Shown here: piece after piece, positions 39,951 through 43,741 of the stretch
Layout: the number at the start of each line of letters is the position of its first letter
How positions within the stretch are numbered: position 1 is the stretch's first letter
Origin: Armatimonas rosea
GTDB lineage: Bacteria > Armatimonadota > Armatimonadia > Armatimonadales > Armatimonadaceae
DNA length: 64,000 nucleotides
Assembly (NCBI RefSeq): GCF_014202505.1
Contig: NZ_JACHGW010000001.1
Location: 1,426,001 to 1,490,000, forward strand
Direction of reading: 5' to 3'
Translations under genes and position numbers: made by a program
Notes under the pieces: model-generated
Seen by the model: the letters and a program-made list of their open reading frames with translations, nothing else
What the model was told of the DNA's origin: nothing
Databases searched by the model: none

Positions 39951-40715
39951 ATGGAACTTAGCAAGACACAGGTCGCCTTTTTCCGCGCCAAGGGCTGGCT
40001 CACGGTCGAGGATTTCTGGAGCGCACCGGAGGTCGCGGCGATGCGCACCGAGCTGGAGCGCCTCAAGGCCGAGGGCAAGCTTCGCAATGTCGCCACCGAC
40101 GGCGACGGCAAGACACACTCGACCACGAAGGTCAATCTCCAGCTCTGCCCGATGTGGCCGCACTCCGCGCTGTTCAAGGCGATGCCCTTTGCTCCCAAGG
40201 TGGTCGCGGCGATCGAGGCGCTGATCGGCGCTCCCGCACTCTTGCACCTGGATCAGGTCTTTCTCAAGCCGGGCAAGCACGGGACGGGGACCAACTGGCA
40301 CCAGGACAATGCCTACTTCCAGATCCCCGATCCGCTCAAGGGGACCGCGCTCTGGACCGCCGTCCACGATGCGACTCTTGCGAACGGCACGCTTCAAGTC
40401 ATCCCCCGCGCCTTCGCCGAGCCGCTTCCCCACGAGCGCGATGGCTTCTCCGACCACCACATCCGGTGCTGGCCCGACGAAACCAAGGCCCTTCCTGTGG
40501 AGATAAAGGCGGGGGGAGTGATCTTTTTCTGCTACGGCACGCCCCACGCGACCGGTGCCAACACGACCGACCACGAGCGCGCGGGAGTCGCCCTACACTT
40601 CCTCAACACGGATCAAAATGGCGAGGCGCGCAGTGGCTTTGAGCCTGGCAAGCGCCCCGCGCTAGTCGCCGATGGCGCGGCCTGGGACGCCCAAGTCGCC
40701 TCCGTGCTCGCATGA
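39951..40715 (+). CDS. phytanoyl-CoA dioxygenase (PhyH) family Fe(II)/2-oxoglutarate oxygenase
   Basis: 254 aa. Double-stranded beta-helix oxygenase: WHQDNAYF supplies the His and Asp iron ligands and GTPHATGAN the distal His. The substrate is unknown. ATG 39951 lies 7 nt after TATGCT (39938-39943); the longer ORF starts inside the operator palindrome. It overlaps the next gene by 4 nt. Confidence 0.87.
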   Translation: MELSKTQVAFFRAKGWLTVEDFWSAPEVAAMRTELERLKAEGKLRNVATDGDGKTHSTTKVNLQLCPMWPHSALFKAMPFAPKVVAAIEALIGAPALLHLDQVFLKPGKHGTGTNWHQDNAYFQIPDPLKGTALWTAVHDATLANGTLQVIPRAFAEPLPHERDGFSDHHIRCWPDETKALPVEIKAGGVIFFCYGTPHATGANTTDHERAGVALHFLNTDQNGEARSGFEPGKRPALVADGAAWDAQVASVLA

Positions 40716-41797
40716 AGCAAGTAAGCTGGCGCACAGAGAAAGATGCGGTCTTTGTCGAGGCGAGGGCGCTGCACCGGCCGCTCTTTGTGCTCTTTGCCTG
40801 CCCCAAAGAGAAGCGCGCCGCCCCGATCCTGCGTGCCGAGAGCCCCGCGCTGGCCCACCTGCTCACCGAGCGCTTTCTCTCGGTCCACTACAGCAGCCTC
40901 AAGGGGATCGACCTGAGCCTCTTTCCCTTTGACTACGAGCAGCAGCTCATGGGGCTCGTGCTAACTCCCTTGGGCACGACTCTCGCCCGCTGGGGCGGCC
41001 GCGACCAGGGCTCGGTCGCCTCGCTGGTCGCGTTTCTGACACGCGTCCAAGCAATTCCCTGGCCCAAAGAAATCCCACCCGCTCGTCCAGGCCAGACAAT
41101 CGCCCAGCGCTACCCACGCTTTGCCCGCACGCCTCGCGCCGCCGAGGCCTGCTACCACTGCCACTACGCCCAGGATGCCGCGATCACGGAGCAGCTCGCC
41201 GCTAAGACATTCCAGAAACTCTCGCTCTACCGCTATCCGCCGCCCTCCGTGCTGGGCCTGACCCTCGGCGACGACAACCAGGTTCTGGCGCTCGCTCCGG
41301 GCTCCCCCGCGCAGAAAGCGGGCCTGCATGTCGGGGAGCGCCTCGCACGGCTCAACGATAAAAGTCTCTACAGCGCCGCCGATCTCTCCTACGCGCTAGA
41401 TGCCCTGCCCGCCGCCACCCGCACGCTCTCGCTCAATGGCAAGCGTCTCACGCTCCCCAAGAACTGGCGCACCTACGACATCTCCTCCCGCCCGTCGCAG
41501 GGCTTAGTGCCGCCGCTCTTTGGCTTCTGGGAAGAGCCCGCCTCTGGTAGCAAGACCCTCGCGCTCAAGGTCACGTTTCTTTTCACCGGCGAGCGCTGGC
41601 GCGCCTCGCAAGGCGACCTAAGAGTGGGGGATATCATTGTCGCCGTGGACAACAAAACACTCCCACAAATGAGCGCCTCGCAGTTCCACACCTGGCTCCG
41701 CATGAACAAAGAGGTCGGGCAGAGCGTCACCCTCACCGTCCTCCGCGACGGCAAACGCCTCTTGATCGCTCTGCCCTGTTTGGCGCTGGATGGTTGA
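40712..41797 (+). CDS. PDZ-domain protein with CxxCH motif
   Basis: 361 aa. The N-terminal 120 residues resemble a thioredoxin-like fold without CxxC (FVEARALHRPLFVLFACPKEKRAAP). A CYHCHY motif follows near residue 150, then two PDZ-like modules (LALAPGSPAQKAGLHVGERL and RASQGDLRVGDIIVAVDN). CxxCH normally binds c-type heme or metal, but no signal peptide is seen, so heme attachment is doubtful. Co-translated with the PhyH gene. Confidence 0.65.
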   Translation: MKQVSWRTEKDAVFVEARALHRPLFVLFACPKEKRAAPILRAESPALAHLLTERFLSVHYSSLKGIDLSLFPFDYEQQLMGLVLTPLGTTLARWGGRDQGSVASLVAFLTRVQAIPWPKEIPPARPGQTIAQRYPRFARTPRAAEACYHCHYAQDAAITEQLAAKTFQKLSLYRYPPPSVLGLTLGDDNQVLALAPGSPAQKAGLHVGERLARLNDKSLYSAADLSYALDALPAATRTLSLNGKRLTLPKNWRTYDISSRPSQGLVPPLFGFWEEPASGSKTLALKVTFLFTGERWRASQGDLRVGDIIVAVDNKTLPQMSASQFHTWLRMNKEVGQSVTLTVLRDGKRLLIALPCLALDG

Positions 41798-41976: not shown

Positions 41977-42864
41977 CTACTTCGTCGGTGGCACCCAGCC
42001 GCGGGGATCGTAGCCGAGGCCGAAGGCATCGGCCATGCGGTTGAAGAAGGCAAATAGCGCCGTGTCGAAGGCCGCCTCGAAGATCTGATCGTCGTTCCAG
42101 CCTGCCTTGCGGAGCGCTTCCACATCGGGATCGCTGACCTTGGCAGGCTCCAGGGTCAGGCGCTTGACAAACTTGAGCAGCTCGCGCTCCTTGGGCGCCA
42201 GCCCCTTGGCTTTCTCGGGCTCGGCCATACCGACCGCATCTACATCACTGAGCTCTTGTCCCTGCGACCGCAGGAATCCACCATGGCTGGACACTCAGTA
42301 CTTACACCGGTTCAGCCCAGACACGTAGGTCGCGACCAGCTCTTTCTGGCGCCGGGTAAGGGCACCGTCGCTGAAGTGCATCATGCCCACGAGCTCCTGC
42401 ACCAAGGCCATCGCCTCCGGCTTGGGGCTCATCGTCCGCATGATCCCCGGAATCTGCCGGACAGTCTTAAAGGGCATCAGCTTCTGAAGCGCCACAAAGC
42501 GCGGGTCGGTGTCCTCCATGACCCAGTCGATCCGGGCGACACTGTTGGCCTTATTGATGAGTGCCATCAGCTCCTGCGGCCCGGTCGCCTTGCCGGTCAG
42601 CCGGCCACGGCGGTCGTAGATCAGGGCGCTGGGGGTGGTCGTGATCTCGTTCTTCTTGGCGATAGGCTCGTCGCCCGTGGTCAGGTGAATGGCCTTGAGC
42701 CCGATGGCGCTGTCTTTGAGCTGGGCCCTGACGCCGTCGAAGAGCTGCTGCTCCATCATGCTCCCGGGGCGGTAGAAGAAAAAGACCGTCGGTTGCTCAG
42801 GGACCAGATGGTTCGTGAAGACAATCTCGGCTCCGGTGGAGACGGGAGAGACAGGCGGTTGCAT
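41977..42864 (-). CDS. predicted selenoprotein: thioredoxin-like domain fused to AhpD-like peroxidase domain (in-frame UGA = Sec190)
   Basis: 295 aa if UGA at 42297-42295 is read as selenocysteine. The adjacent paralogue aligns on both sides of the UGA: it has CKFCLSSHAGF where this gene has CKY-UGA-VSSHGGF. The UGA thus replaces the second Cys of the AhpD CxxC, the peroxidatic one. Glu175, Cys187, Sec190 and His194 have the spacing of AhpD Glu118, Cys130, Cys133 and His137. Downstream, 105 codons stay open and similar to the paralogue. Residues about 20-120 are thioredoxin-like without CxxC (FFFYRPGSMMEQQ). ATG 42864 follows the paralogue stop by 1 nt. AhpD-type proteins reduce peroxides. 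Without Sec machinery it would end at residue 189. Confidence 0.85.
42261..42297 (-). promoter_or_regulatory. bacterial SECIS-like hairpin following the UGA codon
   Basis: On the minus-strand mRNA, 20 nt after the UGA (42297-42295), a 5-bp stem CCUGC/GCAGG (42274-42270 with 42265-42261) closes a GGUC tetraloop. Loop distance (about 25 nt) and a G in the first two loop positions match the general bacterial SECIS model. The apical GGUC is also present in the E. coli fdhF SECIS loop. Confidence 0.8.
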
Positions 42865-42865
42865 C

Positions 42866-43741
42866 TTAGTACTTTGCTCCTGCGGGGCGCGGCCAGCCGC
42901 TGGCGGCGTAGTCGAGGCCGTAGGCGTTGGCCATGCGGTTGAAGAAGGCGAAGAGGGCGGCATCGAAGGTCGCCTCGTAGAGCTCGGGGTCGGTCCAGCC
43001 GGCTTTACGGAGGCTCTCGATATCGCTGTCGGTGATCTTCCAGGGCTCCTCGGTCAGGCGCTTGACATACTCCAGCAGGGCGACATCCTTGGGAGCCAGC
43101 CCGATCGCCTTCTTGGGATCACGGAGCCAGAGCGCATCGATATCCTTGCCGTCCTGGCCGGCCTTGGAGAGAAAGCCCGCGTGGCTACTCAGACAGAACT
43201 TACACTGGTTGAGCGACGAGACATAGGTGGCGATCATCTCCTTGGTCCGCACCTTGAGCTCGCCGTCTTTGAAGTGCATGAGGTTGGCCATGCTGATCAT
43301 CCCTAGCATCGCCTCGGGGCGGAAGCTCATGGCTCGCATGATCCCCGGGAGGCGGCGCACATCGCTGAGGCCCATGCGCTTCTGGATCTCATCGGCCTGC
43401 GGCGATCCCGGCATGGCCCAGTCGATCCGGCCCACATCGCTCGCCTGCATCGCCAGCTTGACGATCTCATCGGTATTGGTCGCCTTGCCGGTCTGGCGGC
43501 CCCGGCGGTCGTAGACCAGCGCCAAGGGGGTCTCGGTCACGGCAAATTTCTTGGCCAGGGGCTCGTCGGTGCTCTTGACCTCGACTCCCCGAAGGGTCAC
43601 CGGGTGGCCGGTCGTGAGCTTCTGCAGGTCGGTGAAGAAGCTACGCTCCATGGAGCTATCCGGGCGAAAGAAGAGATAGATCGTGGCCTGCTCGGCTCCG
43701 AGGGGGGCAGGCAAGTCGTCGGCAGAAGCGGCTTTACTCAT
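42866..43741 (-). CDS. cysteine homologue: thioredoxin-like/AhpD-like carboxymuconolactone decarboxylase family protein
   Basis: 291 aa, full-length Cys version of the downstream selenoprotein gene. Residues about 15-110 form a thioredoxin-like fold without a redox CxxC (FFRPDSSMERSFF, TPLALVYDRRGR). Residues about 130-285 form an AhpD-like domain with Glu168, CKFC at 180-183 and His187. The C-terminus AFFNRMANAYGLDY is shared by both paralogues. It probably reduces peroxides or acts as a thiol oxidoreductase. Start ATG 43741 lies 7 nt after a weak TACCAT box in a short gap divergent from nudC. Confidence 0.85.
   Translation of the reverse strand: MSKAASADDLPAPLGAEQATIYLFFRPDSSMERSFFTDLQKLTTGHPVTLRGVEVKSTDEPLAKKFAVTETPLALVYDRRGRQTGKATNTDEIVKLAMQASDVGRIDWAMPGSPQADEIQKRMGLSDVRRLPGIMRAMSFRPEAMLGMISMANLMHFKDGELKVRTKEMIATYVSSLNQCKFCLSSHAGFLSKAGQDGKDIDALWLRDPKKAIGLAPKDVALLEYVKRLTEEPWKITDSDIESLRKAGWTDPELYEATFDAALFAFFNRMANAYGLDYAASGWPRPAGAKY

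Follow-up and report, generated by a model that had tools for sequence, protein, structure and literature searches.

AhpD-like selenoproteins with a CxxU motif have been reported since 2005, when 27 sequences were described from the Sargasso Sea (PMC1088965). A further report in 2008 gave 299 sequences from GOS (PMC2398784), and in 2026 AhpD-like selenoproteins were listed under TIGR01926 (PMC13188914). In the bacterial SECIS model (Fig. 2A of PMC13188914), the apical loop is 3-9 nt and the upper stem 4-16 bp long, a G is located at loop position 1 or 2, the distance from UGA to loop is 16-37 nt and the folding energy is <= -7.5 kcal/mol. Bacterial replacements of Sec by Cys are described as rare, and have been documented mainly for FdhA and SelD (PMC13188914).

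The locus described here is located in a window of 64,000 nucleotides, the whole stretch of Armatimonas rosea DNA that was analysed (contig NZ_JACHGW010000001.1, positions 1,426,001 to 1,490,000). A predicted selenoprotein gene occupies 41977-42864 of its minus strand, and the product would combine a thioredoxin-fold domain with an AhpD-like domain that carries Sec190. Because AhpD-like CxxU selenoproteins have been reported since 2005, this selenoprotein adds one more member to a family already described. It also adds a well-supported predicted selenoprotein to the phylum Armatimonadota, for which the full-text literature search found no selenoprotein study. For the AhpD-like selenoproteins, the papers searched described neither a fused Cys-free thioredoxin-fold domain nor a tandem Sec/Cys pair.

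Active site and probable function of the AhpD-like domain

The minus-strand translation of 41977-42864 is 295 aa long, with a single in-frame TGA (U190) and TAG as the terminator; the gene was assigned from this one TGA in an open frame, from a same-genus relative and from TIGR01926. The UGA codon (42295-42297, minus strand) does stand in place of the second Cys of a CxxC motif, as the original prediction had it. The first position of the motif is Cys187 (42304-42306), the only Cys of the protein. Two further residues are invariant in alignment A2: Glu175 (42340-42342), 12 residues ahead of Cys187, and His194 (42283-42285), 4 residues past Sec190. The active-site stretch is C187-K-Y-U190-V-S-S-H194, and the complete set Glu-(11)-Cys-x-x-Cys/Sec-(3)-His, invariant in A2, is present as E175, C187, U190 and H194, which agrees with the AhpD spacing proposed for the locus. 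In Mycobacterium tuberculosis AhpD, the catalytic residues are Glu118, Cys130, Cys133 and His137.

The C-terminal AhpD/CMD domain comprises approximately residues 137-285 (42010-42456, minus strand). It matches PF02627 at 54 bits and TIGR01926 at 96.4 bits, above the curated cut-off of 81.8, and all 10 members of A2 match the latter model at E<=0.1. Scores for two other models remained below their cut-offs: 19.1 bits against 191.95 for classical AhpD (TIGR00777), and 67.4 bits against 175 for NF041238 (AhpD_rel_CFYUT). None of the family models searched covers the two-domain form in full. In the Foldseek comparison, the C-terminal domain was matched to PDB entry 6k40 with an E-value of 9.2e-12.

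The product would be a two-domain thiol/selenol oxidoreductase, with the catalytic Cys187-x-x-Sec190 borne by the AhpD domain. By homology with AhpD, Sec190 is assigned the peroxidatic role and would most likely attack peroxide, with Glu175 and His194 acting as a proton relay. Cys187 may then resolve Sec190 to a selenenylsulfide, and an outside dithiol partner may re-reduce Sec190. Another function for a Sec-containing enzyme has to be weighed, namely that of a thiol-disulfide oxidoreductase, or of a reductive enzyme acting on some other substrate, with no peroxidase activity. The CMD/AhpD superfamily has members that catalyse other reactions, mycobacterial AhpD serves as the electron adaptor for AhpC, and Foldseek also places the protein near the debrominase Bmp8, which has the same fold. 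Moreover, a hydrophobic, signal-peptide-like N-terminal start was recognized by eye in seven two-domain Sec homologues outside the genus, and export would bring an enzyme into contact with different substrates; no such start was seen by eye in the window protein or in that of the same-genus relative. Against this, the named families and structures nearest to the protein are related to peroxidases (TIGR01926, 6k40), and no residue of the Glu-Cys-Sec-His set is missing. A function without peroxidase activity is possible but the less likely one.

Decoding of the UGA codon

A homologue search with a threshold of E<=1e-25 covered 291 genomes of the phylum. Fourteen places in 10 genomes were found; besides the window gene and its Cys paralogue, these are 12 homologues distributed over nine other genomes. 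The original prediction had called for an alignment of CxxU homologues, and in this alignment the homologous codon is TGA in every one of the 12. The in-frame UGA is therefore both conserved among homologues and aligned with a Cys, that of the paralogue. The contigs that bear homologues include Armatimonadetes and Abditibacteriales, and the same-genus relative, an Armatimonadetes MAG, encodes a protein 78% identical to that of the window, with the same TGA. Among the nine homologue-bearing genomes, selB is present in eight and selA in seven, compared with selA in 141 of the 291 genomes across the phylum. In one of them (G209, 88% complete), which has a TGA homologue, neither selA nor selB was detected.

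A scan of contigs with the single window protein as the query gave no match. With the alignment as the query, 7 loci were found, six of which were already present in the phylum genome search. In genome G003, a gene of the window type (L043:4746) and a gene for a single-domain CxxU AhpD selenoprotein (L043:6518) are located on the same strand, with their UGAs approximately 1.8 kb apart. A homologue in a Planctomycetales MAG (L042:5526-5605) carries GGG (Gly) in place of the Sec codon, with an intact hairpin (UUCCUGCAGUUGCAGGGA) and selB in the genome; its Gly would reflect either an error in the sequence or Sec that was lost recently.

The Armatimonas rosea genome examined is 6.33 Mb in size and 98.2% complete. 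The absence of all Sec machinery had been named as an observation that would refute selenocysteine, and the search found the pathway to be complete. The genes selA (506.7 bits), selB (356.6 bits) and selD (372.3 bits, with an in-frame TGA of its own) all score above their curated cut-offs, and a tRNA-Sec with the anticodon UCA was detected both by Rfam (61.6 bits) and by ARAGORN.

A SECIS hairpin, UUCCUGC-GGUC-GCAGGGA, was assigned at 42259-42276 of the minus strand from folding and compensatory changes. Its core, CCUGC-GGUC-GCAGG, begins exactly 20 nt past the UGA, and two further pairs extend it to a 7-bp stem with an energy of -9.1 kcal/mol. The claim that this hairpin fits the bacterial SECIS model holds for all four published features: a 4-nt loop on a 7-bp stem, a G in one of the first two loop positions (GGUC here, and either AGUU or GGUC in same-register homologues), a loop (42269-42266) located 25 nt past the UGA, and the energy just given. 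When the same peptide was recoded synonymously, a hairpin at least as stable, at any allowed spacing, appeared in 0.64% of 5000 trials (p ~0.006). The stem is 89% paired in the twelve sequences of one register. Three stem pairs have both partners changed (examples are CUUGC-AGUU-GCAAG and CCUCC-GGUC-GGAGG), and 4 of 500 shuffles reach three. These covariation counts are small and come from single sequences, the same bases are also under constraint from the coding frame, and a control slid by +3 reaches a similar covariation score. In one homologue (L033) the hairpin is shifted, with its loop 20 nt past the UGA. Folding of all 61 nt that start at the UGA gave an MFE structure other than the hairpin (z-score -0.31); folding of only the 34 nt that lie beyond the ribosome gave an MFE structure that includes it, with an energy that is not exceptional (z -0.74). 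The Rfam scan of the window returned nothing at gathering thresholds, and the Cys paralogue contains no hairpin that meets the SECIS model, its best reaching -5.6 kcal/mol. During translation, the ribosome would decode UGA190 as selenocysteine using tRNA-Sec and SelB, and SelB is presumed to bind the hairpin that starts 20 nt past the UGA.

At least three further predicted selenoproteins are encoded in the same genome. SelD (L014, minus strand, G000:C4:581092-582057) is itself a predicted selenoprotein, with CAGUASKIGP at the catalytic position and a GGGCC-GUC-GGCCC hairpin whose loop is located 17 nt past the UGA. A second AhpD-like predicted selenoprotein (L003:1354-1965; G000:C2, ~1223132-1223569, plus strand) carries the motif CFYU, followed by the hairpin CACGCAGA-GUU-UCUGCGUG with its loop 17 nt past the UGA. 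A Prx-like predicted selenoprotein (L060, minus strand, G000:C12:24225-24527) contains the stretch VFLRHLGULPCREH; its hairpin, GUCACGC-AGUU-GCGUGAC, has the loop 25 nt past the UGA, which is the spacing of the window gene, but it differs from the window protein in belonging to another protein family with the active site U-L-P-C. A thioredoxin-like frame (L059:520; G000:C3:842211-842567, plus strand) with TGA in FWGFWUGPCQ (UxxC) is a candidate only.

Three readings that dispense with selenocysteine were considered. If the UGA were a true stop, translation would yield a protein of 189 residues that lacks the catalytic one, and the remainder would be a separate gene starting from GTG 42294. The mechanical list of ORFs, made without recoding, does give such a pair, a 222-aa ORF at 42295-42963 and a 105-aa ORF at 41977-42294, just as the original prediction had warned; standard annotation would break the Sec gene in the same manner. 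Some termination at UGA is also usual in bacterial selenoproteins, and more of it occurs when selenium is short. The break, however, would cut the CMD/AhpD domain midway and part its two active-site residues. The CKFC paralogue is unbroken at this place, and conservation extends over the entire frame as over a single protein. The original prediction had the frame open and homologous for 105 codons past the TGA, and these codons are indeed open and conserved. Between the window gene and that of the same-genus relative, dN/dS is 0.184/0.83 before the TGA and 0.084/0.848 after it, a ratio of about 0.10; the low dN relative to dS in the latter part implies protein-level purifying selection there. 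Two separate genes are very improbable and this reading was rejected.

No better standing is given to the idea that the UGA is read as some other amino acid, through a changed code or a suppressor tRNA, although such read-through would look alike in frame. TGA is the terminator of 3 of the 10 genes checked within the window, and because UGA serves as an ordinary stop in neighbouring genes, it must be recoded here with the code unchanged. A tRNA-Sec (UCA) and SelA, SelB and SelD are present, relatives have Cys where the UGA stands, and a SECIS-type hairpin lies alongside; this reading, too, was rejected as highly unlikely. The least credible reading takes the gene for a broken CxxC AhpD whose TGA arose by nonsense mutation or by an error of sequencing. 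It draws on the single base that separates TGA from TGC or TGT and on the TGT of the neighbouring paralogue, but it is refuted by the same-codon TGA in 12 homologues from nine other genomes, which excludes an error of sequencing; purifying selection that goes on past the TGA and complete Sec machinery also speak against it.

The selenocysteine reading of the UGA is supported by the Sec machinery in the genome, the TGA kept in relatives and the SECIS-type hairpin. The prediction that the window gene encodes a selenoprotein, with UGA190 read as Sec, may therefore be regarded as well supported. With high confidence, we consider that Sec would be inserted at UGA190 by tRNA-Sec, SelB and the hairpin, that the product would be a two-domain oxidoreductase of the thiol/selenol type, and that the upstream gene would be a copy in which Sec has been replaced by Cys.

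The N-terminal domain and the tandem Cys paralogue

The first reading of the locus was sound for the AhpD part, but it missed the N-terminal thioredoxin-fold domain and the nature of the upstream gene as a Cys paralogue. The N-terminal domain comprises approximately residues 16-110 (42535-42819, minus strand) and was recognized by AlphaFold2 and Foldseek. The AlphaFold2 model of this part has a mean pLDDT of 90, and Foldseek comparison with PDB thioredoxins gave E-values of 9e-5 to 8e-4 and TMt of 0.55-0.73. Pfam matches of the domain to thioredoxin were sub-threshold only; the thioredoxin fold was assigned because fold comparison settled it. SxxE (S35 and E38) lies near the place of CxxC, followed by a cis-Pro-like T77-P78.

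The two-domain form is common to nine predicted Sec proteins in eight genomes, including that of the window, and four homologues (L031, L032, L034 and L035) are single-domain. CxxC is missing from the N-terminal domain, which has no Cys in any of the nine two-domain Sec proteins; S35 and E38 are invariant, and two of the nine have one Cys in the N-terminal hydrophobic stretch. Since the domain is without Cys, it cannot pass electrons by disulfide exchange, and our best guess is that it probably has a structural or docking role.

The upstream gene (42866-43741, minus strand) is a tandem paralogue, identified from the ORF list, the alignment and the tree, that encodes CKFC with a TGT codon (43195-43193) at the Sec position. 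Only 1 nt separates its stop from the ATG of the selenoprotein gene. In the tree, which left out the Cys homologues of other phyla and in which the Cys copy is long-branched, the paralogue clusters with the Sec genes of the window and of the same-genus relative, with a support of 99/99 (97/95 in a second tree). It nests in an otherwise all-Sec set, and one Sec/Cys change suffices. A tree constrained to keep five Sec proteins, that of the window among them, together without the Cys paralogue was rejected (p-AU 0.0001). The nesting of the Cys copy within the Sec clade implies a Sec ancestor, a duplication and a Sec-to-Cys conversion in one copy; the sequences thus point to an apparent origin of the upstream gene by conversion of a duplicated Sec gene. 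In the same-genus assembly the Sec gene adjoins a NUDIX gene and no Cys copy was found, so that either the copy was lost there or the duplication took place later than the tree indicates.

A more speculative proposal, which we hold to be rather unlikely as a whole, is that the Sec and Cys genes form one operon of paired isozymes derived from duplication and Sec-to-Cys conversion, one copy working when selenium is short, with the Cys-free domain docking a redox partner or another subunit. The convergent neighbour (40712-41797, plus strand) encodes PDZ domains after a CxxCH motif (ACYHCHY), and a gene end similar to this neighbour adjoins the Sec gene in the same-genus genome.

Comparison with known systems

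The best structural and sequence match of the C-terminal domain is Deinococcus radiodurans AhpD (PDB 6k40), in which Glu, both active-site positions and His align with those of the window protein. Unlike the window protein, it has Cys for Sec and no N-terminal thioredoxin-fold domain. NF041238 (Sargasso Sea hypothetical protein 1) shares with the window protein the AhpD domain, a CxxU close to the C-terminal end and an N-terminal part that exceeds 100 residues; however, the two align over the AhpD part only, and the window protein has CKYU instead of CFYU.

In common with the AhpD-like CxxU selenoproteins of TIGR01926 (COG2128), the window protein has the CxxU motif, the AhpD/CMD fold and a SECIS just past the UGA. 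It differs from them in its extra Cys-free N-terminal thioredoxin-fold domain, its Armatimonadota host and its Cys tandem copy. The natural tandem Sec/Cys pair in one genome offers a ready comparison of what Sec gains over Cys, and this pair, together with the fused Cys-free thioredoxin-fold domain, makes the window protein a variant of the AhpD-like family.
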